Source: a virus. From it: a stretch of 64,000 nt of DNA. Below the pieces are notes generated by a model. That model saw only the letters and a program-made list of their open reading frames with translations. It did no database searches and was not told where the DNA came from. Positions 1 through 44,569 of the stretch are shown one piece after another (within the stretch, counting starts at the first letter, position 1; each line of letters begins with the position of its first letter). A program made the position numbers and the translations under genes. The stretch lies in IMG/VR virus record IMGVR_UViG_3300012936_000005, positions 1 to 64,000 of that record; one strand, 5' to 3'.

Positions 1-651
1 GAACTAGAAGCAGACGATCTTATTGCAGGTTGGATACAAGCACACCCTAATGATAATCATGTTATTATTAGTACTGACGGTGACTTTGCACAACTTATTG
101 CACCTAACGTAAAACAATACAATGGTGTTAGCAATACAGTAATTACACACGAAGGTTACTTTGACGATAAGAAGAAGAAACCCGTACTTGACAAAAAGAC
201 AGGAGAACCTAAGCCTGCACCTAATCCACAATTTATGTTGTTTGAGAAGTGTATGCGAGGTGACACAAGTGACAATGTGTTTAGTGCTTATCCTGGTGTA
301 AGAACAAAAGGCACTAAGAACAAAGTCGGACTAATTGAAGCATTTGAAGATAGAGAAACTAAAGGCTTTAATTGGAATAACATGATGCTACAACGTTGGA
401 CAGATCACGATGGTGTAGAGCATCGTGTATTAGATGACTATCAACGTAACGTGGTACTTTGCGACTTGACTGCACAGCCAGGTAATATTAGAAGTATAAT
501 TAACGATGTAGTAGAAGATGCTATGGAACAACCTAAAGCAGTTACACAAGTAGGTATGCGACTAATGAAATTTTGTGCAAAACATGATATGCAACGTATT
601 GCAGATAACATTCAACTTTATGCTGACCCGCTTAATGCGAGGTACACATAA
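1..651 (+). CDS. T4 RNase H-like 5'-3' exonuclease (FEN/PIN family), 5' end missing
   Basis: The frame is open from base 1, so the gene starts before the window; 216 codons and a stop are visible. The fragment shows FEN/PIN nuclease acidic motifs: EADDLIA at residues 3-9, STDGDF at 24-29 and RGDTSDN at 86-92, the last followed by a glycine-containing YPGVRTKG stretch. These resemble the metal-binding aspartates of T4 RNase H and related flap nucleases, which remove RNA primers and 5' flaps during lagging-strand synthesis. The first acidic motif of the family must lie in the missing N-terminal part. The stop codon overlaps an ATG (TAATG at 649-653), but the next gene more likely starts at 663. 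The identity as RNase H rather than another phage 5' nuclease is inference. Confidence 0.82.
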   Translation, partial: ELEADDLIAGWIQAHPNDNHVIISTDGDFAQLIAPNVKQYNGVSNTVITHEGYFDDKKKKPVLDKKTGEPKPAPNPQFMLFEKCMRGDTSDNVFSAYPGVRTKGTKNKVGLIEAFEDRETKGFNWNNMMLQRWTDHDGVEHRVLDDYQRNVVLCDLTAQPGNIRSIINDVVEDAMEQPKAVTQVGMRLMKFCAKHDMQRIADNIQLYADPLNARYT

Positions 652-652
652 T

Positions 653-658
653 GGAGGT
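653..658 (+). promoter_or_regulatory. Ribosome binding site GGAGGT that decides the start at 663
   Basis: GGAGGT lies four bases upstream of the ATG at 663. The competing ATG at 651 would contain this motif inside its own coding sequence and has no purine-rich site in front of it. The later start is therefore preferred. Confidence 0.7.
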
Positions 659-662
659 AAAA

Positions 663-1142
663 ATGACAATAAAGGCAAAACCAATACTAAAAAATAAATT
701 TTGGATTGTTGAGAAAGATGGCGAAAGAATCGGCACACTTTCTAAACAAGAAGACAAAAGGTATATGTATAGTTGTTCTACAGGCACAGACTATTTTACT
801 GATATAAAGGCTTTCAACAATTACATAGGTGGATTAAGTTTTGATAAAGCAACTATTTCAGATGGTAGTAATGCAGTAAAAGAAATACACGGTTTTTCAA
901 CATCTAGTACACCTTATAATGTAATGTACAATGTACAAAAGAAATTACCGCTTTTTACTAAAAGTAAAAAATCTAAGAGCTTGTATGCGGCGGGCTATTA
1001 CATTATTCATTTTGATAAAGGTTGGGTACGAAGTTTCTGTCCTAAGTTAGTAACACTTGAAAAGTATGAATATAAAGGACCTTTCAAAACTGAATTTACT
1101 ATGAGACAGGAATTATCAGATGCAAACAAACGAGCCAATTAA
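663..1142 (+). CDS. Conserved phage protein of unknown function
   Basis: The 159-residue product starts MTIKAKPILKNKFWIVEKDG and has no catalytic motif that I recognise. It is rich in lysine and aromatic residues and looks soluble. The start at 663 is chosen for the GGAGGT site just upstream; an in-frame ATG at 651 would add four residues. It overlaps the next gene by 23 bases, so the two are probably translated together. Its place beside the FEN nuclease suggests early or middle expression. Function unknown. Confidence 0.8.
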   Translation: MTIKAKPILKNKFWIVEKDGERIGTLSKQEDKRYMYSCSTGTDYFTDIKAFNNYIGGLSFDKATISDGSNAVKEIHGFSTSSTPYNVMYNVQKKLPLFTKSKKSKSLYAAGYYIIHFDKGWVRSFCPKLVTLEKYEYKGPFKTEFTMRQELSDANKRAN

Positions 1143-1368
1143 CACTATACCAATTCAGCAGTTTATACAAATTGTTAAGACTGCTGAAGCAAGTAATCAA
1201 AAAGAAATTAGGATTCCATTAACACAAGCAAAAGCACTTGCCTATGCTTTAGGAACTGTAATGGCAAACCATCAAGGAAGATTAGAAAAACTTATTATTG
1301 ATAACAAATCTAATGCTGACGAAGAAGTAGTAACTGTAACTATGGACGGTGGGAGTGATTGGAAATGA
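1120..1368 (+). CDS. Small conserved phage protein of unknown function
   Basis: An 82-residue product starting MQTNEPINTIPIQQFIQIVK, with a predicted helical middle (residues 10-55) and an acidic, Asp/Gly-rich end. The start lies inside the previous gene and the stop TGA overlaps the next ATG (ATGA at 1365-1368), the usual arrangement for translational coupling. No membrane segment, cysteine cluster or known motif is visible. Function unknown. Confidence 0.75.
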   Translation: MQTNEPINTIPIQQFIQIVKTAEASNQKEIRIPLTQAKALAYALGTVMANHQGRLEKLIIDNKSNADEEVVTVTMDGGSDWK

Positions 1369-1634
1369 AGTGGTTTATTGTAGTTTTATTTCTACTTGAT
1401 CCAAATGCTGATATCACTGCTGATAGAGATATCTACGTATTTACAGAACCAACATTTGAGACTCAAGAACAATGTCAATCAGATGTTGTTGATCCAGCAG
1501 TTTATCCTACTCTAGTACAAAAACTGTTGCTTGAATACAAGTATCCTAGGAAGATACAAAATGTATTTTGTGTAAGCGAAAAAGAACTTAGGCAAATACT
1601 AGGTGCTTTAACGGCAAAACAAGTGAAATACTAG
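1365..1634 (+). CDS. Small protein with hydrophobic N-terminus, unknown function
   Basis: From the ATG at 1365 the product has 89 residues and begins MKWFIVVLFLLDPNADITAD. The first 11 residues form a short hydrophobic stretch that could act as a signal or anchor, although it is short and has no clear cleavage site. Two cysteines follow (QCQSDVV and NVFCVSE). A TTG two codons upstream (1359) is possible, but the ATG forms an ATGA overlap with the preceding stop and is preferred. Function unknown. Confidence 0.7.
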   Translation: MKWFIVVLFLLDPNADITADRDIYVFTEPTFETQEQCQSDVVDPAVYPTLVQKLLLEYKYPRKIQNVFCVSEKELRQILGALTAKQVKY

Positions 1635-1653
1635 TAGTTTTCTACTAAAAAAA

Positions 1654-1661
1654 GATAAATA
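1654..1661 (+). promoter_or_regulatory. Candidate T4-type late promoter GATAAATA
   Basis: GATAAATA matches seven of eight bases of the T4 late consensus TATAAATA, in a 57-base gap ahead of the gene at 1692. Transcription would start a few bases downstream, inside the left arm of the hairpin at 1662-1692. Confidence 0.5.
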
Positions 1662-1692
1662 TATGCGTAGTTAATTAAAAGGATTACGCATA
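1662..1692 (+). promoter_or_regulatory. Inverted repeat around the ribosome binding site of the gene at 1692
   Basis: TATGCGTA (1662-1669) and TACGCATA (1685-1692) are perfect 8-base inverted arms. The 15-base loop holds the Shine-Dalgarno AAAAGGAT (1677-1684), and the right arm ends on the A of the start codon. In a read-through transcript the site would be held in this loop. A transcript begun at the late promoter just upstream would lack most of the left arm. The regulatory role is inference from the T4 gene e precedent. Confidence 0.5.
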
Positions 1693-1982
1693 TGAGTAGA
1701 CCAAAACCAACAATTATTTTAGAGAATGTAGACAAAGCATCTTACAAGTGTGAGCAAGTTTTGCAAGCAGAAGCCATATGGGCAGTGTTCTATAAAGGCG
1801 CTCCATTCAATCTAAAAACATCAAACGCAATTACGAATTATCCAGGTCCTAAGTATAAGAAAGTATCTTTCTCCAATCCAGGACATGCACACAATCTAGC
1901 AAAGAAACTAAATGATCTTTTCAAAAGCGAAGACTTCGCTGTATACAAGCTGACATCGGGCGAACTGGTTACAGATGAATGA
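1692..1982 (+). CDS. Conserved small phage protein, unknown function
   Basis: A 96-residue product starting MSRPKPTIILENVDKASYKC. A basic, aromatic central segment (NYPGPKYKKVSFSNPGHA, about residues 49-66) looks like the conserved core. No known catalytic motif is seen. The start is supported by AAAAGGAT eight bases upstream, and the gene follows a late-type promoter with a hairpin. The stop overlaps the next start by four bases (ATGA). Late expression is inferred from the promoter motif only. Confidence 0.8.
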   Translation: MSRPKPTIILENVDKASYKCEQVLQAEAIWAVFYKGAPFNLKTSNAITNYPGPKYKKVSFSNPGHAHNLAKKLNDLFKSEDFAVYKLTSGELVTDE

Positions 1983-2359
1983 ACTGGAAAGAAACATACA
2001 CTAAGGTATTCTTAAAGCAATCAGACATCGCTATTAGTGACGCTAATATTAAGCAGTATATGGCGGACTGGTGGCAGAACAATAGAGGCAAAACTGAAGG
2101 CGGTTTACGTCTTACAGAAGATGGCTTTGATTTCTTGCATGATACTTTAGAAATACAAATGTATGAAATACCTTTTCCAAAAGATTTCAAATTTACTACC
2201 CAGACATATATCTTTTTAGACCAATTTATTACTTGTCCATACTACCTTACTAATCGTAGTATATGGGTTACAGATGAAAAAAAGAGTATGGAACTGCATC
2301 TTTTCAGCGGAGATCTACGCAAATACGGTCTTACAAAAGCAATGAAAAGACACGAGTAA
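1979..2359 (+). CDS. Conserved phage protein, unknown function
   Basis: A 126-residue product beginning MNWKETYTKVFLKQSDIAIS, coupled by ATGA overlap to the gene before it. It has many aromatic residues and no recognisable motif, membrane span or cysteine pair pattern. It is the last gene before a 227-base non-coding stretch with two hairpins, so it probably ends a transcription unit. Function unknown. Confidence 0.78.
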   Translation: MNWKETYTKVFLKQSDIAISDANIKQYMADWWQNNRGKTEGGLRLTEDGFDFLHDTLEIQMYEIPFPKDFKFTTQTYIFLDQFITCPYYLTNRSIWVTDEKKSMELHLFSGDLRKYGLTKAMKRHE

Positions 2360-2385
2360 TACATACTAACACCCCAGAAAAGCGT

Positions 2386-2409
2386 TAAATGGCATTTAAG
2401 AGCCATTTA
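2386..2409 (+). other. Hairpin after the gene ending at 2359
   Basis: TAAATGGC (2386-2393) and GCCATTTA (2402-2409) form a perfect 8-bp stem with an 8-base loop. No U-run follows directly. It is the first of two tandem stem-loops and may stabilise the 3' end of the upstream message. Confidence 0.5.
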
Positions 2410-2424
2410 GACACCAAAATCGTG

Positions 2425-2460
2425 CATTTTAGACGCCTAAAATGGTGGTGATTTCTTTTG
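2425..2460 (+). terminator. Second hairpin, weak intrinsic terminator candidate
   Basis: CATTTTAG (2425-2432) and CTAAAATG (2437-2444) form a perfect 8-bp stem with a 4-base loop. A T-rich but interrupted run (GATTTCTTTTG) follows from 2450. The stem is AT-rich, so termination would be modest. It lies between the gene ending at 2359 and the promoter at 2501, where a unit boundary is expected. Confidence 0.45.
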
Positions 2461-2500
2461 CTATCTTTTATAATAAACCAAATTATTTGTCCAAAATAGG

Positions 2501-2529
2501 TTGACCTTTGAGTAGAACGAGTGTATTAT
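2501..2529 (+). promoter_or_regulatory. sigma70-type promoter ahead of the MoxR ATPase gene
   Basis: TTGACC (2501-2506) and TATTAT (2524-2529) are separated by exactly 17 bases; each hexamer differs from consensus at one position. Initiation near 2536 would give a leader of about 50 bases. This suggests early transcription by unmodified host polymerase. Confidence 0.75.
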
Positions 2530-2586
2530 ATATACATACTTAGAAATTAAGTATGGCACTGATAAAAAATGAAAGAGGAATATACA

Positions 2587-3675
2587 ATGGAAACTACCGC
2601 ACTACGTACAGTATCGCCCAATCAAGCTAAAAAAAGCATTATGAGGGCATTCAAGAAAAAACGTCCTATCTTTATGTGGGGACCTCCAGGCATTGGTAAA
2701 TCTGATGTTGTTGGACAGATTACAGAATCGCTTAAGAATTCACATTTGATTGACATTCGTTTGTCACTTTGGGAACCTACAGATATTAAAGGTATTCCAT
2801 ATTATGCGGCCAACGATAATGTAATGGCTTGGGCACCACCGCAAGAACTTCCAACAGAAGAGTTTGCTAAGAAGTTCAAATATGTTGTTTTATTCTTAGA
2901 CGAAATGAATTCTGCGGCACCGGCAGTACAGGCGGCGGCTTACCAACTTATTCTAAACAGACGTATTGGACAATACAAACTGCCCGATAATGTTCTTATT
3001 GTTGCGGCTGGTAATAGAGAAGCTGACAAAGGTGTTACTTATAGAATGCCTGCTCCGTTGGCAAACAGATTTGTTCACTTAGAGCTTGCAGTTGATTTTG
3101 ATGACTGGATGCAGTGGGCAACTGAAAACCATATACATCCTGATGTTGTTGGTTATTTGAATTTTAGCAAGAAAGACTTGTATGACTTTGATCCTAAAAG
3201 TCCAAGCCGTTCATTTGCTACACCTCGTTCTTGGTCATTTGTATCTGAACTTATTGAAGATGATGATGACGAGAATACCACTACTGATTTAGTTAGTGGT
3301 TCTGTCGGCGAAGGACTTGCCGTTAAGTTTATGGCGCATCGTAAGGTTGCTTCGAAACTTCCTGATCCTACTGAAATACTTTTAGGTAAGGTTGAGAAGT
3401 GTGAAACTAAAGAAATCAGTGCCATGTATTCCTTGACTGTTTCACTTTGCTATGAACTTAAAGACGCTTGCGATAAGAACGATAAAAAGTTTGACAATAA
3501 AGTAAACAACTTTTTACGTTTTGCAATGGATAATTTTGATACTGAATTGGTTGTCATGGGTATCAAACTTGCTCTTACACAATACTCTCTTCCAATCGAT
3601 CCAGATGAAGTTGAGTGTTTTGATGAGTTCCATGAGCGTTTTGGTAAGTATATTTCAGCCGCACAAAGCGCCTAA
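2587..3675 (+). CDS. MoxR-type AAA+ ATPase
   Basis: The 362-residue product carries the AAA+ core: Walker A GPPGIGKS at residues 32-39, Walker B LFLDE at 102-106, a sensor-1 region AAGNRE near 140-145 and an arginine-bearing ANRF segment about 20 residues later. The layout matches the MoxR group, which remodels or activates partner proteins, usually one with a VWA domain. Such a partner is the next gene. The ATG at 2587 is chosen because AGAGGAA (2574-2580) lies six bases upstream; an ATG at 2569 has no ribosome site. The gene has its own sigma70 promoter and is followed by a strong hairpin, so it may be a monocistronic early gene. The target in the infected cell is not known. Confidence 0.88.
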   Translation: METTALRTVSPNQAKKSIMRAFKKKRPIFMWGPPGIGKSDVVGQITESLKNSHLIDIRLSLWEPTDIKGIPYYAANDNVMAWAPPQELPTEEFAKKFKYVVLFLDEMNSAAPAVQAAAYQLILNRRIGQYKLPDNVLIVAAGNREADKGVTYRMPAPLANRFVHLELAVDFDDWMQWATENHIHPDVVGYLNFSKKDLYDFDPKSPSRSFATPRSWSFVSELIEDDDDENTTTDLVSGSVGEGLAVKFMAHRKVASKLPDPTEILLGKVEKCETKEISAMYSLTVSLCYELKDACDKNDKKFDNKVNNFLRFAMDNFDTELVVMGIKLALTQYSLPIDPDEVECFDEFHERFGKYISAAQSA

Positions 3676-3684
3676 GGCGTGGGG

Positions 3685-3720
3685 ATATTGGACAAGGCAT
3701 ACTAAGACCTTGTCCAGTAT
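3685..3720 (+). terminator. Strong hairpin between the ATPase and VWA genes
   Basis: TGGACAAGG (3689-3697) pairs perfectly with CCTTGTCCA (3708-3716). Pairing extends outward to about 13 bp (3685-3720) with one G-U pair; the loop is 10 bases. The downstream T-run is short (TTTC), so it may be a partial terminator or a message-stabilising hairpin. Confidence 0.55.
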
Positions 3721-3733
3721 TTCTCCAAAACTG

Positions 3734-3762
3734 TTGACATATGATAGTAAATATAGTATACT
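3734..3762 (+). promoter_or_regulatory. sigma70-type promoter ahead of the VWA-like gene
   Basis: A perfect TTGACA (3734-3739), a 17-base spacer and TATACT (3757-3762, one mismatch to TATAAT). Initiation near 3769 leaves a leader of about 28 bases containing the ribosome site AAGGAG. Confidence 0.82.
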
Positions 3763-3796
3763 GTAAGAACAATAAGGCACTGAAGGAGTACAAATT

Positions 3797-5086
3797 ATGG
3801 GCATAGAAACAAAAGGTTTTCAACCAAATCCAGACATTACAAAAGAAGAACTAGAAGCTATGAGAATAGATGTAGCTGATAGAATTATTGTAGCAAGGGT
3901 TGGTTTGCTTCTAAGACATCCATTCTTTGGTAACATGGCTACTAGACTTATTGTTAAACATTGTGATGACTGGTGTCCTACTGCCGCAACAGACGGCAGA
4001 CATTTGTATTACAATACACAATTTTTTAATGCACTTTCTAACAAAGAAATAGAATTTGTAATCGCACACGAAATATTGCATTGTGTCTTTGATCATATCG
4101 TTAGACGAGAAGGTCGTATTCCTATTTTACACAATATCGCGTGTGATTACATCGTAAACAATACACTGGTACGTGATCGTATTGGTGAGATGGTAAAACT
4201 TGTTCAGTGTTATCAAGACTTCAAATATGAAGGTTGGACTAGTGAAGCAGTATATGATGAATTATTTAAGAAAGCAGAAGAGAACGGTCAAGAGTATCTA
4301 AAGCAATTAGGTGATTTACTTGACGAACACGTAGACTGGGAAGAAGCTCCAGAAAGTGATTCTAAAGATTCAAAAGGTAAAAAAGCCGAAAAAGGCGAAG
4401 GTAGACCTACATATACAAAAGATGAACTTAAAAAGATACGTGACGAAATAAAAGAAAACATGATAAGTTCTGCACAGGCGGCAGGTGCTGGTAATACACC
4501 TAAAGAAGTGCAACGTATTATCAAAGAATTAACAGAACCTAAAATGAACTGGCGTGAATTGTTGCGTCAGCAAATTCAATCTACAATTAGAAATGATTAC
4601 ACATTTAGTCGTCCTTCACGTAAAGGTTGGCATACTGGTGCAGTACTTCCTGGTATGAACTTTATGGATACTATTGATGTTGCTATAGGAATTGATATGA
4701 GTGGCTCTATAGGTGATAGTCAAGCAAAAGTATTCCTTAGTGAAGTAAAAGGTATTATGGACGAGTACAAAGATTACAACATCAAGTTATGGTGTTTTGA
4801 TACTGCCGTTTACAACGAAGCAGACTTTAGTGCAGATGGCGGAGAAGACTTAATGGACTATGATGTACAAGGCGGTGGTGGCACTGAGTTTATGTGTAAC
4901 TGGGAGTATATGAAAGAAAACGATATTACGCCTAAGAAGTTTATTATGTTTACAGACGGATATCCATTTGGTAGCTGGGGTGAAGCAGACTACTGTGAAA
5001 CCGTGTTTATTATTCATGGTCATCATGATAAAAATACAAAGGCTCCATTCGGTGTAACTGCCCACTACGAAGAGGAGGCGGCTTGA
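3797..5086 (+). CDS. HExxH metallopeptidase-like / VWA-like protein (DUF2201 type)
   Basis: The 429-residue product has an N-terminal domain with the zinc-binding motif HEILHCVFDH (residues 91-100). A charged Lys/Glu linker (about 180-225) follows, then a C-terminal VWA-like domain with the metal-site motif DMSGS (300-304) and later GGGGTEF and FTDG stretches. This pairing of a putative metallopeptidase with a VWA-like half is the DUF2201 architecture. It is commonly encoded beside a MoxR ATPase, as here. AAGGAG lies nine bases before the ATG. The VWA part could recruit the ATPase through its metal site. Protease activity is not proven, and the substrate is unknown. The end overlaps the next gene by four bases. 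Confidence 0.85.
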   Translation: MGIETKGFQPNPDITKEELEAMRIDVADRIIVARVGLLLRHPFFGNMATRLIVKHCDDWCPTAATDGRHLYYNTQFFNALSNKEIEFVIAHEILHCVFDHIVRREGRIPILHNIACDYIVNNTLVRDRIGEMVKLVQCYQDFKYEGWTSEAVYDELFKKAEENGQEYLKQLGDLLDEHVDWEEAPESDSKDSKGKKAEKGEGRPTYTKDELKKIRDEIKENMISSAQAAGAGNTPKEVQRIIKELTEPKMNWRELLRQQIQSTIRNDYTFSRPSRKGWHTGAVLPGMNFMDTIDVAIGIDMSGSIGDSQAKVFLSEVKGIMDEYKDYNIKLWCFDTAVYNEADFSADGGEDLMDYDVQGGGGTEFMCNWEYMKENDITPKKFIMFTDGYPFGSWGEADYCETVFIIHGHHDKNTKAPFGVTAHYEEEAA

Positions 5087-5361
5087 TCGCAAACAAAATT
5101 ACAGCCCAGGACTTTTTTGAGATAAGGAGGCTTAAATTTCAGCCACCTCATCTTGCTACGATTGATTTACCACACACATATAATATGGAAAGTGCCATAA
5201 GTAAATGGATAGAATCTAACCTAAAAAAGCGATATTTCCTCAAAAAAGCAGTAGGTCTTACCAAGGAAAATAAGATAGATACAGTTCTTAGAGCAGGATT
5301 TGAAGATCCAAAAGAACTATCTTATTTCGTTTTGGCGTGTCCACATTTGAAATACAAGTAA
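5083..5361 (+). CDS. Small conserved phage protein with TTG start
   Basis: A 92-residue product beginning with IANKITAQDFFEIRRLKFQ after a TTG start at 5083. The TTG overlaps the previous stop (TTGA), and GAGGAGG lies five bases upstream inside the preceding gene, which supports this start. Many positive charges and no recognised motif. It is probably co-expressed with the VWA-like protein and could belong to the same system, but that rests on position only. Confidence 0.75.
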   Translation: MIANKITAQDFFEIRRLKFQPPHLATIDLPHTYNMESAISKWIESNLKKRYFLKKAVGLTKENKIDTVLRAGFEDPKELSYFVLACPHLKYK

Positions 5362-5362
5362 A

Positions 5363-5370
5363 TATAAAGT
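5363..5370 (+). promoter_or_regulatory. Weak late-promoter-like motif
   Basis: TATAAAGT matches six of eight bases of TATAAATA and stands 30 bases before the ATG at 5400. A nearby TATAAT (5376-5381) has no acceptable -35 element. Low confidence. Confidence 0.3.
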
Positions 5371-5399
5371 ACATATATAATACATAAGGAGTGAATAAT

Positions 5400-5705
5400 A
5401 TGTCAGAAGAAACTAAAAAAGCAGAAGCTCAAGCGGCGCCGACAGCGGCACCAGCAGGTGAAGCACCAAACGCAGGTGTATCAACTGCACCCGTTGAACT
5501 TACTGTTCAAGATCTTGGAGTACTAAGATCAATTATTGATGTTGCATCACAAAGAGGTGCATTCAAAGCCAACGAAATGGAAGCAGTTGGTAAAACATTT
5601 AATAAACTTGATGCTTTCCTACAGACAGTTCAAAAAGCTGAAGAAGAAGCTAAAAAGAAAAATGAAGGAACTGCTCCAGCGGAAGCACCTAAAGGAGACA
5701 AGTAA
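5400..5705 (+). CDS. Small conserved phage protein with Ala/Pro-rich N-terminus
   Basis: A 101-residue product starting MSEETKKAEAQAAPTAAPAG. A disordered Ala/Pro-rich stretch (residues 1-35) is followed by a helical core (VQDLGVLRSIIDVASQRGAF, then NEMEAVGKTFNKLDAFLQTV) and a Lys/Glu-rich tail. Start at 5400 is supported by AAGGAG eight bases upstream; a GTG at 5391 is in frame but overlaps that site. I recall similar short proteins in T4-like marine phages, without a known function. The stop overlaps the next ATG (TAATG). Confidence 0.78.
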   Translation: MSEETKKAEAQAAPTAAPAGEAPNAGVSTAPVELTVQDLGVLRSIIDVASQRGAFKANEMEAVGKTFNKLDAFLQTVQKAEEEAKKKNEGTAPAEAPKGDK

Positions 5706-6364
5706 TGGCCGAAATTAAACACGTAGGCAGATTAAAAAGTAACCAACGTAAGGTTGTAGTTGCATATAGAGTTGTTCCAGGTGAGAATCCACCAGAGAAC
5801 GCACTAGTAATTGACACTGCTACTTTAAGTGATGCCGATCATGATACGTTGATTAAAACAGTTGAAAGTAATTCAGCTCAGACAGCATTTGAATTTGCTG
5901 AAGTTATGGCGAGAACACAATTAAGCGATGGTGCTAATATGTTAGCTAGGTTTCACTCAACTGGCAAGCTACAACTAACCAAAATGGCTGATGTTGAAAT
6001 GACACCAAACACTGCAACGCAGATTGGTTTAGATGAACTAAACAAAATTATTGCAGAGCAAAAAGGTGTTACTATTGCAGATTTAGCATTGAAAGATCCT
6101 AACGAACCTGCACCAGGTACAACAATTACTGAAGCTGGTAGTGTTAGCGAAATCCCAAAGACTGCTGATAAAAACGTAGTAGCTGAAGCACAAACCGCTA
6201 ATTTACAAGCACCAAACGACGGTGTATTATCCGATGCTGATTTGGCCGCTAAATATCGTTCAGACGCAGACAGACTTTACAAAGAAGCAAAGGCACTTAG
6301 AGCACAAGCAGAAGAGCTTGTTCCTACTGTAAAGAAGAAGTCAAGTGCCAAAGCAACTGCCTAA
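5705..6364 (+). CDS. Conserved T4-like phage protein, unknown function
   Basis: A 219-residue product. The first 100 residues (starting MAEIKHVGRLKSNQRKVVVA, then FEFAEVMARTQLSDGANML) resemble a domain common in T4-like marine phages. The middle is Thr/Ala-rich. The C-terminal 45 residues form a likely coiled coil (DADRLYKEAKALRAQAEELV) ending in a lysine/alanine tail. It is coupled to the previous gene by TAATG and overlaps the next by 20 bases. No enzymatic motif. A virion or assembly role would fit the neighbourhood but is not shown. Confidence 0.8.
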   Translation: MAEIKHVGRLKSNQRKVVVAYRVVPGENPPENALVIDTATLSDADHDTLIKTVESNSAQTAFEFAEVMARTQLSDGANMLARFHSTGKLQLTKMADVEMTPNTATQIGLDELNKIIAEQKGVTIADLALKDPNEPAPGTTITEAGSVSEIPKTADKNVVAEAQTANLQAPNDGVLSDADLAAKYRSDADRLYKEAKALRAQAEELVPTVKKKSSAKATA

Positions 6365-6659
6365 TGATGTAATTAGGCACTGGCCTGAGGTTTTTCGTGA
6401 CATAGACATTCAAACTATTCCCATAAACTACCTTCAATCTATTAGAGTTGAATTTAGAGGAGGTAAGATATGGGAAATAGATTGCAATGCTAAACGTAGT
6501 ACTGGCGCTAATTTAGACGATGCAATAGCTGAACTATTCAACGAGTATGGTAAAGATATAAAGCATGTTGATTTTAGGCTTAATACAGCCAAAGTAAAGC
6601 GTGATGTACAGAAAAAAACAAGGGCTTTTTTAAAGAATCCCACAAAAAAGAAAAAGTAA
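6345..6659 (+). CDS. Small basic conserved phage protein with GTG start
   Basis: A 104-residue product from a GTG at 6345; no in-frame ATG exists near the N-terminus. The conserved-looking part is HWPEVFRDIDIQTIPINYLQ (residues 12-31), followed by a strand-rich segment and a strongly basic tail ending NPTKKKK. The start overlaps the previous coding end by 20 bases. The basic tail could bind nucleic acid, but this is only a charge argument. A late promoter region follows directly. Confidence 0.72.
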   Translation: MPKQLPNDVIRHWPEVFRDIDIQTIPINYLQSIRVEFRGGKIWEIDCNAKRSTGANLDDAIAELFNEYGKDIKHVDFRLNTAKVKRDVQKKTRAFLKNPTKKKK

Positions 6660-6664
6660 GTTTA

Positions 6665-6697
6665 TCATTGTTTTGATATAAATACATATAACAATGA
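6665..6697 (+). promoter_or_regulatory. Late promoter TATAAATA framed by an inverted repeat
   Basis: TATAAATA (6677-6684) is a perfect match to the T4 late consensus. It sits between perfect inverted arms TCATTGTT (6665-6672) and AACAATGA (6690-6697). Initiation would fall at about 6690, leaving a leader of about 22 bases with AGGAG ahead of the ATG at 6712. The motif context GATATAAATACATATAACA is repeated at the promoter near 40006 on the other strand. Confidence 0.78.
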
Positions 6698-6711
6698 ATT
6701 AGGAGCATTAC

Positions 6712-7746
6712 ATGGGTACTTTACGAATCAAACGAGGCACAAAGACGCAATTACAATCCAACCCAGGATATGTACCTGCAGAAGGTGAACTTGTTTATAC
6801 CACTGACACAAAAGAAGTATTTGTAGGAGACGGGGCTTTAACAGGTGGAACTCCAGTATCTGTATCAACACAGAATTTAGAAGACTTAGGTAACGTGCAG
6901 GCATTGGCCGCACAAAACGATCAAATACTTGTATATAACGGATCACAATGGGCCGCTACAGACAATCCAGCAGTAGACGTAAGAGGTAACATTTATGGTG
7001 ATGATTCAACGCTCCTAGTTGACGCAATCAATGGCAAAATTGTTGCTCCAGTAGAAACTACATCAGTTACAGCAACTAATTTAGTTGGTACTTTGACAGG
7101 TGATGTAACAGGTTCTGTTACAGGTAACGTTGTTGGAAATACAACAGGAACACACTTCGGAAATGTTGTTGGTAACTTAGATGGTGATATAAACGGATCT
7201 ATTTATGGTGACGATTCAACATTGCTAGTTGATGCTGTTAATAGTGTCGTTAGTGCAAGAGTCGATACCAACGAAGGCGTAATTTCAAGAGGTGGAGATC
7301 ATATCAAAACATTTGGTATAGGAGGTATTGATACTTCTCCAAGAGTAGAATTTATTTACAATGAAGCACCTGCAGATGGAACTGTAGTTATAGCTACACA
7401 CAGAGTTTTAGATCGCACACAACAAAAATTTGTTATACAAACACGTACCGGTAACACTTATCTAAGTCATCATGATAATGGTACAAATGGTATTACAATG
7501 TACGATAGCTATACAGTAGCCGGTGGACTAAAATTAAAAATAGAGCCTGCAAACTCAGACTTTACAGCACCAACTGAGGCATTAGAAGTTTTAGGTAATG
7601 CTAAAGCAACTGGCTTTGTACAATTTGGTTCATTAACAACTACACAACGTAATGCACTTACAGCGGCTAACGGAATGGTTATTTACAATACAAGTGATAA
7701 TAAATTCCAAGGCTATGAAAACGGTGCTTGGGTGAACCTAGTTTAA
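6712..7746 (+). CDS. Tail-fibre-like virion protein
   Basis: The 344-residue product starts MGTLRIKRGTKTQLQSNPGY and continues with GELVYTTDTKEVFVGDG, the pattern of the major-tropism-determinant type N-terminal domain found on phage fibre proteins. A middle Gly/Thr/Val-rich part (residues 120-165) has short repeats of the type GDVTGSVTGNV. IYGDDSTLLVDA occurs twice (about 98 and 165). The end GMVIYNTSDNKFQGYENGAW resembles fibre C-termini. Behind a perfect late promoter, it fits a late-expressed adhesion or fibre protein. It is the only fibre-like gene on the plus strand and directly precedes the enzyme island. Confidence 0.75.
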   Translation: MGTLRIKRGTKTQLQSNPGYVPAEGELVYTTDTKEVFVGDGALTGGTPVSVSTQNLEDLGNVQALAAQNDQILVYNGSQWAATDNPAVDVRGNIYGDDSTLLVDAINGKIVAPVETTSVTATNLVGTLTGDVTGSVTGNVVGNTTGTHFGNVVGNLDGDINGSIYGDDSTLLVDAVNSVVSARVDTNEGVISRGGDHIKTFGIGGIDTSPRVEFIYNEAPADGTVVIATHRVLDRTQQKFVIQTRTGNTYLSHHDNGTNGITMYDSYTVAGGLKLKIEPANSDFTAPTEALEVLGNAKATGFVQFGSLTTTQRNALTAANGMVIYNTSDNKFQGYENGAWVNLV

Positions 7747-7779
7747 TAACCCCCCATAACAACAGAGATAAGTAATAGT

Positions 7780-8361
7780 ATGCAAGTACTATATCTTATC
7801 CTCTTCTCTTATCTAGCCTATATGCTTATTGTTACTATTGGTATTACATATGGTTATCATAGATATTTTTCACACAGAGAATTTTCTGCAACACCTTGGC
7901 AAGAAGTTGTCATGCTTTACTGCGGTTTATTATGTGGAAATAGAAGTCCATTAGGATGGGTAGGTGTACACCGTATGCATCATGCATATGCAGATACACC
8001 GAAAGATCCGCATAGTGCAAAATATCAACCTTGGTATTCTATATTGTTTAGTTTATGGAGAGTAGATAGCATTCCGCGTAAATTTTTAAAGGATATGATT
8101 TCAAATCCTAGAGTAGTATTTTTTCACAAACATAGAAACTTAATTTATATTACAAATGCAATATTACTTACTTTAATTTTTGGATACAAGGCAATTATAG
8201 TATTAGCAATAATTTATGCTTTAGCCTACTTTGGCTTTGGCGCATTGAACTTTTGGGGGCATGACAGCAAAGGTCCGATTAATAATATTTGGGTAAATTT
8301 AATCGCACCGTTCGAAGGAAACCATAAAGATCATCATGAAATGGCGTTTAGAAGAGATTGA
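7780..8361 (+). CDS. Membrane fatty-acid desaturase (short form)
   Basis: The 193-residue product carries the three histidine boxes of acyl-lipid/acyl-CoA desaturases: HRYFSH (27-32), HRMHH (64-68) and HKDHH (182-186). It has hydrophobic segments at about 3-22, 44-53 and 122-155. These enzymes use a di-iron centre and O2 to put double bonds into acyl chains in the membrane. The protein stops seven residues after the third box, whereas bacterial relatives usually run on; it is therefore a compact or C-terminally trimmed form. Its end overlaps the next gene by 26 bases. It opens the plus-strand arm of the enzyme island, and no clear promoter lies in the 33-base gap before it. The acyl target is unknown. 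Confidence 0.85.
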   Translation: MQVLYLILFSYLAYMLIVTIGITYGYHRYFSHREFSATPWQEVVMLYCGLLCGNRSPLGWVGVHRMHHAYADTPKDPHSAKYQPWYSILFSLWRVDSIPRKFLKDMISNPRVVFFHKHRNLIYITNAILLTLIFGYKAIIVLAIIYALAYFGFGALNFWGHDSKGPINNIWVNLIAPFEGNHKDHHEMAFRRD

Positions 8362-8791
8362 ACCTCACATAGAGGATATTAAAGAACTGTTTGAAAAAAC
8401 ACAAGGACACAAACATGCAGATAACTATAGCAAGTGGCCTTTGTTTGAACATACCAAGTTTGCCCGCATGGGTTGGGATCCTCATTTAATTTATTACAGT
8501 GCTGGTATTGCTAGACCAGAATACAACGGCGGCATTAGAATTATGAGCCGTCATACTCGTGATCGAAATTATGATTGGGGTACAATGAAAGATGACTTGC
8601 AAAGAGGAAATGCTACATTAGGTTTTAGTACAAAAATGGCACTTGATATGGGCTATAAAGATATATGGGTAAGTAGAGAAGAAAATCCTAAACTACTAGA
8701 ATGGTTTCAAGAACATAGTTTTTATAATTGGAAAATTACACAAGAAGAAATTCCCTTAGGAGGACTGCAATGGGTCTTACGATTGGCATAA
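8336..8791 (+). CDS. Unknown protein, possible GNAT-like fold
   Basis: A 151-residue product starting MKWRLEEIEPHIEDIKELFE. Features such as YYSAGIARPEYNGGIRIMSR in the middle and a final segment with WVSREENPKLLEWF recall the order of strands and helices in acetyltransferase-like proteins. No clear acetyl-CoA loop is visible, so this is a weak suggestion. It overlaps both neighbours (desaturase 26 bases, Rossmann protein 22 bases) and is surely part of the same operon. Confidence 0.7.
   Translation: MKWRLEEIEPHIEDIKELFEKTQGHKHADNYSKWPLFEHTKFARMGWDPHLIYYSAGIARPEYNGGIRIMSRHTRDRNYDWGTMKDDLQRGNATLGFSTKMALDMGYKDIWVSREENPKLLEWFQEHSFYNWKITQEEIPLGGLQWVLRLA
8758..8764 (+). promoter_or_regulatory. 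Ribosome binding site AGGAGGA deciding the start at 8770
   Basis: AGGAGGA ends five bases before the ATG at 8770 and sets the start of the Rossmann protein there. The longer reading from 8728 would add 14 basic residues before the glycine-rich loop and has no such site. Confidence 0.75.
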
Positions 8792-9237
8792 CTGGTCATA
8801 CAAGCGGCTTTGGAAAACATATTGCCAAAGAATGCAAAGAACTAGGACACGTTGTTAAAGGTTATAGTAGAGCAACAGGATATGATTTACATTTTGATAT
8901 AGAAAAAGTATTTGAAAATAAGATGGATTGTATGATAAATTGTGCAGATATCGGCAACGCCCAAGTTAATATTAGTATAAGAGCATATCGTAACAAAATT
9001 AAATGTATTAATATTGGCAGTAAAATTACAGAAGCAAAGGTTACAGATCATTGGGATATTATAAAAAAGGACAATAAAATTACACTAGAACATATGAGTA
9101 AAAAATTTAAGCAACCTTATCTCACATGGGGATTTACTAAAGGAAATCCTATATTGGAAAGTAATCCACAACTATTAGAAACAATCACTATTGATGATGC
9201 AGTAAAGGAAGTAATTAATGAGCTGGCACTTACATAA
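8770..9237 (+). CDS. SDR-like Rossmann-fold protein
   Basis: A 155-residue product starting MGLTIGITGHTSGFGKHIA. It shows the short-chain dehydrogenase nucleotide-binding motif TGxxxGxG at residues 8-15 and a later INCADIG segment in the place of the family NNAG. I do not see the catalytic YxxxK pair, and the protein is shorter than the usual 250 residues. It may bind NAD(P)H without acting as a classical dehydrogenase. It overlaps the following oxygenase gene by 20 bases. Confidence 0.72.
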   Translation: MGLTIGITGHTSGFGKHIAKECKELGHVVKGYSRATGYDLHFDIEKVFENKMDCMINCADIGNAQVNISIRAYRNKIKCINIGSKITEAKVTDHWDIIKKDNKITLEHMSKKFKQPYLTWGFTKGNPILESNPQLLETITIDDAVKEVINELALT

Positions 9238-9841
9238 TATAATTGCTCAATACGGAGATTTCCTACACTTGAAGCAACCAAAAATAAATTGCAGTCAAGT
9301 CCTAGAAGAATTAAAAAACTATGAATGGATAAAATATAATCCTGATAAACCAAATATTCCTAGAGACTGTATCAATGTTACTAGTTTAGATGGCAGTTTA
9401 GAAGGCTTTACAGGCACACTAATGGTACAAGGAGTAAATGCAGATAGCGATTTTAAGACTCCAACTGAAGTATATGAAAGTAGTAAGACCATACAAAAAT
9501 TATTAGAACCTTGGAAACCTTATTTAGGAAGAACACAATTTTTAAGATTGCCGCCAGGAGGATATTTTCCACCTCATCATGATGGTGGTAAAAAAGGTGC
9601 TCCAGATACTTTTAGATTAATTGTACCAATTGAAAATGCAAATCCTCCTGGATTTTGCTGGATGTATGGTGACGAAAATAATTACAAACCATTACAATGG
9701 GAAACAGGTAAATTATACTATCTTAACACAAACAAAAAACATTGGTTGTTTAATGCAAGTGCAAATGATAGTATATGGCTTACCTTGAATATATCAGCAT
9801 GTGACGAAACTGTACATATGATTAGGAGTTTCGTTCAATGA
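9218..9841 (+). CDS. 2OG-Fe(II) oxygenase, Asp/Asn beta-hydroxylase-like
   Basis: The 207-residue product has the jelly-roll facial triad in the right order: H120-x-D122 in GGYFPPHHDGG, a distal H175 in LNTNKKHW, and R133 in DTFRLIVPIE as a likely 2OG or fold residue. This is closest to the aspartyl/asparaginyl beta-hydroxylase branch. It shares the pattern TPTxxY...LGRTxxL..GGxFPPHxD with the minus-strand gene at 20596, so the two look like paralogs. AAGGAAG lies seven bases before the ATG. The start overlaps the previous gene and the stop is coupled by ATGA to the next. The substrate is unknown. Confidence 0.8.
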   Translation: MSWHLHNIIAQYGDFLHLKQPKINCSQVLEELKNYEWIKYNPDKPNIPRDCINVTSLDGSLEGFTGTLMVQGVNADSDFKTPTEVYESSKTIQKLLEPWKPYLGRTQFLRLPPGGYFPPHHDGGKKGAPDTFRLIVPIENANPPGFCWMYGDENNYKPLQWETGKLYYLNTNKKHWLFNASANDSIWLTLNISACDETVHMIRSFVQ

Positions 9842-10299
9842 TACCATATTTTGTTCCTGTAGATTTTATAAGCAAAGAAGATGTAGAGTTTTTAGAAAAC
9901 TTAGTACAATCAGATGAGGCAGATTTTAAAGCATATGATACTGTAAGCGGAAAAAAAGATGGTAATCTATGCTGGGATATAAACTTAGATTATTTTAACA
10001 GATTTAATTTGAACAGCTATACATTCTTTGTTCATCAAGAACCTTTTAGTAAAGTTATTTCTCATATAGATAATCCTAAATGGAAAAGAAATACTGTATT
10101 AATAATTCCACTGCTATGGCATAGAAATTATGCTCCATGCTATTTTGAGGATGGTCCTGTTATAGAATTTAGAACTCCTTATCTTTTTAATACACAATTA
10201 CCACACTATGTAAATAATAACGAATACCCAAGATATAATTTTCAAATATGTTTTGAAGAACCAATAGAGGAAGTTGCAAAATGTTTAATCCCCAAATGA
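9838..10299 (+). CDS. Small 2OG-Fe(II) oxygenase-like protein
   Basis: A 153-residue product starting MIPYFVPVDFISKEDVEFLE. It has a possible facial triad H76-x-D78 (SHIDNP) and H123 (NTQLPHYV), with R132 (YPRYNF) about nine residues later, the usual spacing of a jelly-roll oxygenase. It is short, so the fold is minimal or the protein may have lost activity. ATGA overlap upstream and 19-base overlap downstream place it in the same operon. The family call rests on motif spacing only. Confidence 0.65.
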   Translation: MIPYFVPVDFISKEDVEFLENLVQSDEADFKAYDTVSGKKDGNLCWDINLDYFNRFNLNSYTFFVHQEPFSKVISHIDNPKWKRNTVLIIPLLWHRNYAPCYFEDGPVIEFRTPYLFNTQLPHYVNNNEYPRYNFQICFEEPIEEVAKCLIPK

Positions 10300-11033
10300 C
10301 CGAAGGTTTTGTTCACTGTGATCCTATAAGTGATACAAAAGAACTTACTACTTTATTTTATAACATGACTGAAGAAATTTGGCCTGATCTAAGTTTTGGT
10401 GACCAAACTTATCTAAATGTTTATATGCAACGTCCAAAAGATCTAATGAGTAAGAGAGACATATATAATGGCCTACGTGGGTTTGATATGAAAGAAGAAT
10501 CTAATTGGTTAAATTATGTTACAGAAACACAATATAAAACTGGTGTGCTTTATTATGTAAAACTACGTAAAGAGAATGCAAGAATAGAAGACCATCAATG
10601 GTTGAACATATACTGTTTTGTACACAATGATTTTAGAGAACTAGGAAACAAATATTGGAAAGAACTTGAACAAGCAATACCAGATCTAAGAAGTAATTAT
10701 TGGTTTAGTTATATGGAACATGACTGCGAATTTCAATGGCACACAGATGGTGATACAGGATTTAGATATCATCATGTATTGAATAACGACGGTGAAGGTA
10801 TTACTAGTAGTATTGAAACTAGTGACGGAAGTGTGTTCCGTAAACCGGGTGAAGCATTTATCCTTAACACAGCTAAGCCTCATTGTGTGGTACCAGCTAA
10901 AAGTGTAAGACTTCATGCTGTTGCAAGTGTTAATGGTCCGAAAAGCACAAGAAAAGATCACAACAATCAATGGCTAGAAGATACAAACACAACTTGGAAG
11001 GATTGGGAGCGTGAACACGGTTATAGTACTTGA
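10281..11033 (+). CDS. 2OG-Fe(II) oxygenase-like protein
   Basis: The 250-residue product has an N-terminal segment of about 135 residues without a known motif, followed by a jelly-roll core. The core has H154-x-D156 (FQWHTDGD), H201 (LNTAKPHCVV) and R210 (SVRLHAVASV), a complete iron and 2OG site in the expected order. AGAGGAAG lies upstream of the ATG inside the preceding gene. The C-terminal tail is charged and Trp-rich. The extra N-terminal part may provide substrate recognition. Confidence 0.75.
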   Translation: MFNPQMTEGFVHCDPISDTKELTTLFYNMTEEIWPDLSFGDQTYLNVYMQRPKDLMSKRDIYNGLRGFDMKEESNWLNYVTETQYKTGVLYYVKLRKENARIEDHQWLNIYCFVHNDFRELGNKYWKELEQAIPDLRSNYWFSYMEHDCEFQWHTDGDTGFRYHHVLNNDGEGITSSIETSDGSVFRKPGEAFILNTAKPHCVVPAKSVRLHAVASVNGPKSTRKDHNNQWLEDTNTTWKDWEREHGYST

Positions 11034-11532
11034 TAGCATATTTGACAAAGACTATCTACAACAACTAGACGAACTTTGCAAGGGAGAACTTTTACAATTA
11101 GATAGTGAAACAGGATCACATGTAGGCGAATATACAGACTACGAATGGCAAATGATTAAAAATGATATTAGGACTTCTCCACACAGACTAAAATTATTAA
11201 ACGAAATAGGTGAACATATTGGTAAAAGTTTACCTACAAAAGATTTAGAACCTATGCAACTGTTTGCAAAAAAGTTTACTCCTAGTAGTCGTATAGGCAA
11301 GCACAAAGAAGATCCAGAAGTATATGGCGACTGGGTATGGATGCTTTATCTTACAGACGAAACTGATGGAGAACTATGTACAGAAGATATGCGTATATTG
11401 CCAAAACGCAACAGACTTGTAATAATGCGTACAGGGTTTGACCATTGGGTAGAACCATGTACTGGCGAAAGACTTAATCTTAGTGGTTGGCCATTCATTA
11501 CAAAACAAGTGAGAGAAAGATGGAAAAATTAG
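11011..11532 (+). CDS. 2OG-Fe(II) oxygenase-like protein (prolyl-hydroxylase type, HxE site)
   Basis: A 173-residue product from a GTG at 11011, inside the end of the preceding gene. The core resembles small prolyl-4-hydroxylase-like proteins: GKHKEDPE (H98-x-E100), WMLYLTDETDGEL, RNRLVIMRTGFDHWVEP (H145) and GERLNLSGW (R154). The first metal pair reads HxE rather than the usual HxD, which is tolerated in part of the superfamily. AAGGA lies about ten bases before the GTG. Substrate unknown. Confidence 0.73.
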   Translation: MNTVIVLDSIFDKDYLQQLDELCKGELLQLDSETGSHVGEYTDYEWQMIKNDIRTSPHRLKLLNEIGEHIGKSLPTKDLEPMQLFAKKFTPSSRIGKHKEDPEVYGDWVWMLYLTDETDGELCTEDMRILPKRNRLVIMRTGFDHWVEPCTGERLNLSGWPFITKQVRERWKN

Positions 11533-12140
11533 ATAATTTTTTACAAAATACAAAGAACTTTAATTTTTGCCAACGTAACTGGAACTATGATAAAATTATA
11601 GATAAAGAAACTATTGAAAAACTTTTAGATATTGGACACGCCACTCCAACAAAACAAAGTTTACAAAATTTTACGCTAATAGCAATTACCAATAGGAATA
11701 TAATAAAACATTTAGAAAAAGCTAGTGTAAGTGATGACGATTGGGAAGGAGATCATAAAAAAAGAGTGGAAGCAGGACAAGTTCAAAATCCGCAAGTAAA
11801 TGCAAACGTATTATTTGTTTATATACGTAATGAAAAAATTTCTGAAAATCAAACTACTGTTGGTATTGAAATAGGCATTTCTGCGGGAGCTTTAGGATTA
11901 GCGGCAAATGAAATTGGTCTTAGAACAGGATTATGTAGATGCATAGATAAAGAACTAATTGACCCAAATCTTTTTGCTAGTTATAATTTACATGTAAATA
12001 ATATTGTGTTATTTTTAGGAGTAGGATATCCATTGCATACTAAAGACTTTATAAAGTTACCAAAACATACTGTACACAATAATATAGATTTTTATAATAG
12101 ATCATATCCTAAACAGCCACATACGAGAATAATTATATAA
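11520..12140 (+). CDS. Nitroreductase-family flavoprotein
   Basis: The 206-residue product from the ATG at 11520 has nitroreductase features: GHATPTKQSLQNF near residue 39, corresponding to the family APS/T..Q.W FMN loop, then NPQVNANVLFVYI, and IGISAGALGLAANEIGLRTG, the helix that packs on FMN. Such enzymes bind FMN as dimers and reduce nitro groups, quinones or enamide-like bonds with NAD(P)H. A TTG at 11487 is an alternative upstream start. A second nitroreductase gene lies at 21355 on the other strand. The substrate is unknown. Confidence 0.8.
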   Translation: MEKLDNFLQNTKNFNFCQRNWNYDKIIDKETIEKLLDIGHATPTKQSLQNFTLIAITNRNIIKHLEKASVSDDDWEGDHKKRVEAGQVQNPQVNANVLFVYIRNEKISENQTTVGIEIGISAGALGLAANEIGLRTGLCRCIDKELIDPNLFASYNLHVNNIVLFLGVGYPLHTKDFIKLPKHTVHNNIDFYNRSYPKQPHTRIII

Positions 12141-16193: not shown

Positions 16194-16842
16194 CTTGTTT
16201 CCTTATTACTTTATCGCTATACTTACTTACGCTTTTTTCTATTAGGTCCCAGTGCTTCTTGGCATTTACTTTTCCAAGTATAAAACCAATAAGTCTATCC
16301 TCAGTATCTGCTTCAACTCCATGTGCTTGGTCTTGATTGCGTATTAAGAATGCATCTGTTTCGTCAGGCACAATACATCTATGTTTTTCTTGCCAAGTCA
16401 TATCACGTGTGTAATCATGTTCCTTACACATATACATTTTATCTTTACTACCTGCTACAACAAAACGATAACCAATTGGTTCATGAGCCATATTATATTC
16501 TAGTGTTTCAGGCATAATTGCTAGATGGTGTTTATGCGTAGGTTCTACTGCATTGCCATCAATATGCGGTGGTATCTCATGTTTTGCCCTTGCTATACGA
16601 ATATAGTAAAAGTCGTCACAAGGTATATATGTTTCAATCCAATCTATAAGTTCGGAATAATTTTCTTTTGCGTTTTTTGTCCATTCCTGAGGATTGCCTA
16701 AAGGATTGTTGTTTTCTTTTTCTCCTAGCAGTGTTTCTTCGTCCCACCAAATATAAAAATCTGGTGCATTAAATCTATCCAATATTTTTTGTTTATTTGG
16801 AATTGGTGGTATTGCTAAAGGTGTAAAAATTATATCTTTCAT
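16177..16842 (-). CDS. 2OG-Fe(II) oxygenase-like protein
   Basis: The 221-residue product has H93-x-D95 (IPPHIDGN), H174 (NQDQAHGVE) and R183 (EDRLIGFIL), in the order and spacing of an Asp/Asn-hydroxylase-like jelly roll. An insert of about 35 residues with several His, Cys and Met (YMCKEHDYTRDMTWQEKHR) lies between the two histidine sites and may cover the active site. ATGA overlap joins it to the B12 radical SAM gene upstream. Confidence 0.77.
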   Translation of the reverse strand: MKDIIFTPLAIPPIPNKQKILDRFNAPDFYIWWDEETLLGEKENNNPLGNPQEWTKNAKENYSELIDWIETYIPCDDFYYIRIARAKHEIPPHIDGNAVEPTHKHHLAIMPETLEYNMAHEPIGYRFVVAGSKDKMYMCKEHDYTRDMTWQEKHRCIVPDETDAFLIRNQDQAHGVEADTEDRLIGFILGKVNAKKHWDLIEKSVSKYSDKVIRKQDVFDA

Positions 16843-18359: not shown

Positions 18360-19099
18360 AACCTATTCACATCTCCTCTCTTAAATTTATCGTATGCAGG
18401 ATTGTCTGTGGTAGCAAGCCATACACTGTCGCTTGGTTTGAAGTTATATTCATTACAAACTTCTGTTTGTTTATCTATCAATGTTTTCCAAATATAATCA
18501 ATATCAAATTTGTTAATAATTGTTTCAGCTATACTGTTTGCATAATAATTATAATACTTGGCACTATTAGTTATAGCATCTAAACGCTGGTCTGGTTCTT
18601 TTGTAAAAATCCAACCTGTCCTAATATTACGCACTCCAAACGGTTTGCTTAAACTATAAAAAACATATTCTACATTATTTGGCAGTTCTATCTTTTTAAT
18701 TTGTGTGCTTCCTACATATGCAAGGTCAACTGCTGTTGGAATTTCAGTAGGTATATCTACAAAGTTACCGTCTATAGCACTAGGCACACTTATATAATGT
18801 ATCCTATTAGTGCCTGCTTTTGGATGAATCCATTGGTAGTCTCCACGCTCCATTGTAACTGATCTACGCTCTTTGTCAAACCACCAATCCAATCCTTGTG
18901 TGATTCCATTCATAGGATATACGTGGAAATTGGATAGATCTACAACAGGTTTTAACCACTGTTTGATGCTTGTAGAGTACTTTAAAACACCGTCTAAATC
19001 GCATTTTAAGCCCTCTACAGCGTGGTTAACGTCCGGAAGTACGTTAGTTCGTACCGCTGTACTTAGGGCTAAAATTTCACTGCAAATTTTCATGTCCAC
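18338..19099 (-). CDS. PLP fold-type I aminotransferase-like protein, short
   Basis: The 253-residue product has the class I/II aminotransferase pattern: YPMNGITQGLDWWF (61-74) in the place of the PLP phosphate turn, VDLAYVGS (124-131) with the aspartate that pairs with the pyridine nitrogen, and YSLSKPFGVRNIRTGW (148-163) with the Schiff-base lysine K152. Typical members have 380-400 residues. This one lacks most of the N-terminal and C-terminal small domain, so it is a trimmed form. The start is GTG at 19099 (GGAGAG six bases upstream) or ATG at 19093. The amino donor and acceptor are unknown. Confidence 0.75.
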   Translation of the reverse strand: MDMKICSEILALSTAVRTNVLPDVNHAVEGLKCDLDGVLKYSTSIKQWLKPVVDLSNFHVYPMNGITQGLDWWFDKERRSVTMERGDYQWIHPKAGTNRIHYISVPSAIDGNFVDIPTEIPTAVDLAYVGSTQIKKIELPNNVEYVFYSLSKPFGVRNIRTGWIFTKEPDQRLDAITNSAKYYNYYANSIAETIINKFDIDYIWKTLIDKQTEVCNEYNFKPSDSVWLATTDNPAYDKFKRGDVNRLCLAPCY

Positions 19100-23104: not shown

Positions 23105-23109
23105 AGTTT

Positions 23110-23138
23110 ATTATAGCACCTTATGTTAATTTTGTCAA
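23110..23138 (-). promoter_or_regulatory. Perfect consensus sigma70 promoter inside the enzyme island
   Basis: On the minus strand, TTGACA (23138-23133), a 17-base spacer and TATAAT (23115-23110) match the bacterial consensus exactly. The usual start point six or seven bases beyond the -10 falls on the A or T of the ATG at 23104, which predicts a message with almost no leader. It lies in the only sizeable gap (39 bases) within the minus-strand arm. Confidence 0.85.
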
Positions 23139-23143
23139 TCATT

Positions 23144-27707: not shown

Positions 27708-27715
27708 ATATGTAC

Positions 27716-44561: not shown

Positions 44562-44569
44562 TATTTATT
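44562..44569 (-). promoter_or_regulatory. Late-type promoter AATAAATA overlapping the giant gene's stop
   Basis: On the minus strand AATAAATAC matches seven of eight bases of the consensus and contains the TAA of the giant gene (44565-44567). The same AATAAATAC is found before gp6. The start point near 44556 leaves a 12-base leader. Confidence 0.6.

Follow-up and report, generated by a model that had tools for sequence, protein, structure and literature searches.

How does a large phage control the genes for a MoxR-like AAA+ ATPase and the VWA protein encoded beside it, and what does that control imply about when the pair acts? The question is raised by record IMGVR_UViG_3300012936_000005 (85,042 bases), of which we analyzed 64,000 nucleotides, hereafter the window. 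The source is a marine T4-like phage; its record encodes a baseplate wedge protein, a late sigma factor, gp46/gp47-like SbcCD proteins, a portal protein and a baseplate hub/lysozyme. In the window, the ATPase and VWA genes are adjacent on the plus strand, each is preceded by its own sigma70-type promoter, and a terminator-like hairpin lies between them. As judged from sequence comparisons, this pair is most likely transcribed as two units in an early or middle class, which sequence does not tell apart.

The ATPase promoter (2501–2529, plus strand; TTGACC-17-TATTAT) matches the sigma70 −35 and −10 hexamers at 10 of 12 positions, and the VWA promoter (3734–3762, plus strand; TTGACA-17-TATACT) does so at 11 of 12. 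Both were thus found as the first-pass annotation had described them, with 17-base spacing. For comparison, 80 related marine IMG/VR contigs, the top-ranking ones among 556 stretches that matched, were reduced to distinct upstream sequences, and promoters were scored by hexamer matches out of 12, with a threshold of at least 10. All 50 distinct ATPase upstream sequences reached this score, at a shuffle rate of 8.0%. For the VWA gene, 45/49 sequences scored at least 10 (shuffle rate 4.2%) and 38/49 at least 11 (0.2%). Seven control genes near the pair yielded only zero or one sequence each at a score of at least 10. When relatives were grouped by 80% protein identity, the ATPase promoter was kept in 23/23 clusters and the VWA promoter in 20/23. 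Because of this retention across relatives, the promoter pair stands well above chance.

The hairpin that had been reported to separate the genes, with 13 base pairs, is likewise present (3685–3720, plus strand). Its 13-nt arms (3685–3697 and 3708–3720) are 92% complementary and enclose a 10-nt loop. The stretch from the ATPase stop codon to the VWA −35 box was folded and compared with dinucleotide shuffles, and 39 of 48 distinct sequences from relatives gave z < −2 (L069, which offers no usable stretch, was left out). The position of the hairpin is kept among these relatives while its sequence varies. In one of them (L046), a tRNA-Arg (ACG) gene at 4146–4222 sits between the two genes, 3' of the hairpin and 5' of the VWA promoter. 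Among 17 loci from other records, two of them second copies from the same phage, 13 fold with z < −2 after the ATPase stop; one of the 13 (L087) belongs to the marine lineage, and another, from N4, forms a structure that is not terminator-like. Two further loci (L094 and L095) have a GC-rich hairpin with a T-tract, yet their z values are −1.5 and −1.9, and no hairpin was found after the ATPase stop in the remaining two (L093 and L096). Phages with a hairpin 3' of the ATPase gene include Atu_ph07, Phosso, PA5oct, RaK2 and SCTP-2.

The ATPase leader is also conserved. In the window it consists of CTTAGAAA ... GGCACTGA followed by a ribosome-binding site, GAGGA (2530–2586, plus strand). Among the relatives, TTAGAAA occurs in 33/48 and GCACTGA in 37/48 distinct ATPase leaders; the window's own leader has a longer gap and escapes the TTAGAAA...GCACTGA pattern. 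The octamer GGCACTGA is present in both window leaders, at 2555–2562 and, in identical form, before the VWA gene at 3776–3783 (plus strand), where GCACTGA recurs in 14/47 relatives' leaders. GCACTGA was absent from the leaders of nine other genes in the relatives. The possibility of a phage-wide element was considered and rejected, as TTAGAAA...GCACTGA was found once each in 3 of 10 records and not at all in the other seven. The combined leader thus looks specific to the ATPase gene, and the shared octamer may possibly be a translational or transcriptional control site common to both genes. The listed ATPase open reading frame (ORF) opens at 2569. Since the agreement among relatives begins at the second ATG, at 2587, and the ribosome-binding site precedes it, translation probably starts there.

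We then compared the two genes with their neighbors for late promoters. The available text of PMC2984593 gives T4-type late promoters as TATAAATA and those of marine cyanophages as NATAAATA. Counting ATAAATA at most 80 bases from a gene in distinct sequences of relatives, we found it before the ATPase gene in 0/48 and before the VWA gene in 0/46, so that neither qualifies as having a T4-type late promoter. The flanking units carry the motif: the upstream unit (ORF 1692–1982) is preceded by GATAAATA at 1654–1661 (plus strand; 43/45 sequences), and the downstream unit (ORF 6712–7746) by TATAAATA at 6677–6684 (plus strand; 37/37). Across the 85-kb record, NATAAATA was observed 12 times against 53 expected, a strong depletion, as if selection acted against stray late promoters. 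By our count, seven of these 12 copies lie within about 50 bases 5' of an ORF start, including those of baseplate wedge, baseplate hub and tail-fibre ORFs.

A matrix built from both promoter sets found eight sites scoring at least 15 in the same record, compared with 0, 2, 0, 0, 1 and 0 in Markov controls; as it was trained on relatives of the ATPase and VWA sites, only the other six are independent. Its sites include positions just 5' of the late sigma (gp55-like) gene and of a gp47-like gene. In a 275-kb relative, a strict form of the promoter matched at ten sites, compared with 0 in the control; six of the ten fall in a region where the ORFs are small and mostly share one orientation. Clusters of small co-oriented ORFs are expected of early genes. 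Given that the promoters are conserved and the late motif is absent before both genes, the pair most likely belongs to the early or middle class. Of the independent early control proposed in the first-pass annotation, separate sigma70-class control finds support in its conservation among lineages and in the missing late motif, whereas "early" must be widened to "early or middle", the two being indistinguishable by sequence.

The ATPase (2587–3675, plus strand; phrog_1297, N4 gp24 family) is identified by profile and by conserved motifs. The phrog_1297 match spans the whole length (E 1.8e-101, residues 11–363). Numbered from 2569, K44/S45, D111/E112, N149, R167 and R220 are invariant in 13 diverse sequences; we take these to be Walker A, Walker B, sensor 1, the Arg finger and sensor 2, respectively. 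Pfam AAA and AAA_5 match the protein, the latter with 27.3 against a cut-off of 22, while bpMoxR, the family of MoxR-vWA-beta-propeller ternary systems, scored 15.2, below its cut-off of 27, and NCBIfam gave no match above cut-off. Among solved structures, the ATPase profile comes nearest to midasin (E 7e-20). A defence-system reading was dropped, as PADLOC gave a weak DolB match to the ATPase (E 9e-5) and none to the VWA protein. We keep the label "MoxR-like" because the MoxR name rests on the assignment of the Atu_ph07 homolog in the text of PMC7824862 available to us.

The VWA protein (3797–5086, plus strand; 429 amino acids; phrog_1314, E 8.5e-110; N4 gp25 family) combines a zincin-like DUF2201_N domain, with HEILH at residues 91–95, and a VWA domain (residues 287–429) with a full metal-ion-dependent adhesion site (MIDAS). 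Pfam scores exceed the cut-off both for DUF2201_N, a putative metallopeptidase family (139.9 bits), and for the VWA-like DUF2201 (55.2 bits). PHROGs labels phrog_1314 "HNH endonuclease", an annotation also found on many records of the VWA-metallopeptidase family; the protein's profile matches give it no support, and we regard it as misleading. H91, H95, H100, D117 and N121 are invariant in 75/75 distinct homologs, and position 92 is E in 74/75, the sole exception being Q. Invariant D117 or H100 is the candidate third metal ligand. The MIDAS residues D300, S302, S304, T363 and D387 are invariant where aligned.

In the predicted model, the C-terminal part has a VWA fold (Z 11.7, root-mean-square deviation 3.2 over 140 residues), and the midasin MIDAS domain is among the VWA matches. 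The full-length model reached a predicted local distance difference test score (pLDDT) of 77 and a predicted template modeling score (pTM) of 0.56, and its structure list, filled by VWA domains, is uninformative on the N-terminal part. Because of that pTM, the N-terminal domain was folded separately (pLDDT 81.6, pTM 0.79). Foldseek with this domain returned no match below E 0.001. In a structure comparison zincins came out on top, with Z of only about 5 (abylysin 5.0, selecase 4.9, ArdC 4.8), followed by a DNA-protein-crosslink protease entry at 4.4; selecase aligns with residues 24–137 and is also a profile match (E 6e-5). The earlier suggestion of a putative protease domain is partly supported: the N-terminal domain is similar to zincins in sequence and, weakly, in fold, and its presumed metal ligands are present in all homologs, but E92 has become Q in one phage. 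A conserved 92-amino-acid ORF (5083–5361, plus strand) overlaps the VWA stop codon in the same orientation; neither a promoter nor a late motif precedes it, and it is probably co-transcribed with the VWA gene. Two Phosso ORFs were examined as its homologs in distant phages and were not convincing (E 0.0035 and 0.0059).

On balance, we favor, with moderate confidence, the reading that the locus encodes a phage form of a MoxR-like AAA+/VWA remodelling machine, made early or in the middle phase from two units and likely directed at more than coat proteins. Host RNA polymerase would make both proteins before the phage late sigma factor acts, and separation of the genes would let the ATPase, with six copies per ring, exceed the VWA subunit. 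Such control of the ATPase:VWA ratio is plausible by analogy, because AAA+ rings are hexameric and VWA partners fewer. The accessible part of PMC3893208 gives about 350 for RavA and about 90 for ViaA, an example of a related pair whose members differ in amount. For NorQD, the available text of PMC13036017 describes a VWA finger entering the AAA+ hexamer pore, proposes that the MIDAS holds the target, and has ATP hydrolysis twist it. By analogy with NorQD and midasin, the VWA protein would dock at the pore of the phage ring and its MIDAS metal would hold an acidic group of the target. ATP-driven motion would then pull on this target, and the zincin head, taking the position of the NorD N-terminal domain, would cleave or grip it. 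Most likely the target is an early- or middle-phase protein involved in replication, transcription or host takeover, and not solely a coat protein. A bolder version, which we consider improbable, is an early two-chain "mini-midasin" with a protease head, encoded by two separately tuned genes. Like a zincin of the SPRTN, ArdC or IrrE type, but powered by an AAA+ ring, it would pull on and cut proteins of the host or the phage that are DNA-bound or relevant to takeover, and terminator uncoupling would be a general large-phage device that keeps the ring in excess.

Several observations weigh against an early or middle remodelling machine made from two units, and we set them beside the other explanations. 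Within the window by itself, promoter-like sites showed no excess (24 in positions 1–8000 against 25.8 ± 5.1 in shuffles), as expected if the promoters and hairpin were chance matches in AT-rich DNA. Such a count is uninformative by itself, and chance, which we consider very improbable, is contradicted by conservation at fixed positions across 23 clusters while the control genes are clean. Neither gene was found to have such a promoter in Atu_ph07, PA5oct, N4, RaK2, SCTP-2, a Roseovarius podovirus or Vibrio 2.275, and the arrangement is therefore a feature of the marine lineage, the exceptions outside it being the ATPase gene of phage G and the VWA gene of Phosso. The Phosso promoter lies between the pair (10/12, shuffle P 0.01) and is followed by GGCACTG; none was found in seven other pairs tested. 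The downstream gene d101 (5400–5705) has the late motif in 15/26 relatives. The T-tract of the window hairpin is weak, and read-through is for that reason likely. Together with the adjacency and shared orientation of the genes, this would suit a single operon in which the hairpin merely lowers VWA expression and the promoter before the VWA gene plays a minor part. That explanation seems rather unlikely to us, since this promoter matches the consensus better than the ATPase promoter does and is kept in nearly all relatives.

The observations against our reading continue at the level of the proteins. Pfam AAA_3, the MoxR-type family, scored 23.4 for the ATPase, below its cut-off of 27. Atu_ph07 (L084/L102), the published example of the pair, has HQxxH, with E92Q and all His retained, which would fit a head that serves as a metal-binding docking or sensing domain and not as a protease. 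To our knowledge, the NorD N-terminal domain is not a protease. The accessible text of PMC13036017 describes it as giving leverage on the target. Given that E92 is otherwise kept throughout the homologs, we doubt the docking explanation. About equally doubtful is the proposal, made in PMC7824862 by analogy with Acidianus two-tailed virus, of a virion-assembly chaperone and processing protease that matures or folds structural proteins late. Virion mass spectrometry of a relative speaks for virion contact: Table 1 of PMC7247149 lists a 49.5-kDa "ATPase", gp265c, with six peptides in phAPEC6 virions. The PA5oct ATPase record carries the note "ESI-MS/MS". We infer from size and gene order that gp265c is the homologous ATPase, because the spacing of gp265c and the thymidylate synthase gp259c mirrors that of the RaK2 ATPase and thymidylate synthase, six ORFs apart. 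The presumed VWA protein, gp264c, is absent from that Table 1, which also contains thymidylate synthase, SSB and RecA, so that carry-over is possible and co-purification is weak evidence. The missing late motif, in a locus whose flanking units carry it, and neighbors that are replication and nucleotide genes also argue against assembly. The promoter class thus weighs against a purely late role; as the first testable hint of timing, it conflicts with the virion-assembly proposal as PMC7824862 presents it and can guide the search for the target.

Elsewhere in the window, among the ORFs scanned, six radical S-adenosylmethionine ORFs are clustered at 16839–34100 (minus strand), one with a weak B12-binding match and one headed by a strong sigma70-type promoter at 23138 (minus strand). 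Metabolic-type ORFs at 7780–12140 (plus strand) comprise a fatty acid desaturase, a weak aspartyl/asparaginyl hydroxylase and a nitroreductase. A single 5,024-amino-acid ORF (44565–59639, minus strand) lies beside baseplate and tail genes, and the ORF at 651–1142 (plus strand) has a sub-threshold match to Pfam N4_GP8, the N4 gp8 DNA replication inhibitor (22 against 25 bits).

The two proteins belong to a known family. In a tblastn search of 50,697 phage records, the ATPase was found in 806 and the VWA protein in 785 (about 1.6%), and in other phages their neighbors include DNA polymerase I, RNA ligase, dCTP deaminase and thymidylate synthase. Other genes intervene between the pair in PA5oct, SCTP-2 and Vibrio 2.275, and in an rV5 relative the presumed VWA ORF (not aligned) is on the opposite strand. 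A search of genome contigs gave one relative only (L087). It keeps the hairpin; its contig, of 335 kb, is part of a Candidatus Neomarinimicrobiota metagenome-assembled genome and may be phage DNA placed there by binning. Table 2 of PMC7650795 lists N4 gp24 and gp25 as core proteins of N4-like viruses (Schitoviridae), and the accessible text of PMC2784036 gives their function as unknown. The corresponding text of PMC7824862, from 2021, described the two as a MoxR-vWA-metallopeptidase pair; in the group 2.2 jumbo phages that it covers, vWA and metallopeptidase form one fused protein. It proposed a role in virion assembly with peptidolytic processing and used as its example exactly the Atu_ph07 homologs ASV44729.1 and ASV44728.2. 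We found no functional study of the pair in open-licence literature. The protein pair itself is thus already known, and what seems new is the conserved uncoupling of its two genes.

The locus can be set against several known systems. The Atu_ph07 pair is homologous (37–38% identity) and shares the metallopeptidase-VWA fusion, the adjacent genes and the hairpin between them, but lacks sigma70-type promoters before the genes and has Q at E92. N4 gp24 and gp25 are a homologous pair in identical order, but the two genes are separated by neither a sigma70 promoter nor a terminator-like hairpin. We know of no zincin head in NorQ/NorD, RavA/ViaA or other cellular MoxR-VWA pairs. Midasin (Rea1/MDN1), which the ATPase profile resembles most closely among solved structures, is a single giant chain with six AAA modules and is not known to contain a zincin. 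N4 middle genes are transcribed by a phage RNA polymerase, according to the available part of PMC2784036. By description rather than by sequence, the cellular pairs resemble the phage pair in joining an AAA+ ring to a VWA partner with a MIDAS, as the accessible text of PMC13036017 sets out. Finally, the N-terminal domain is weakly similar, through zincin fold matches, to the selecase/abylysin minigluzincins, SPRTN, ArdC and IrrE.

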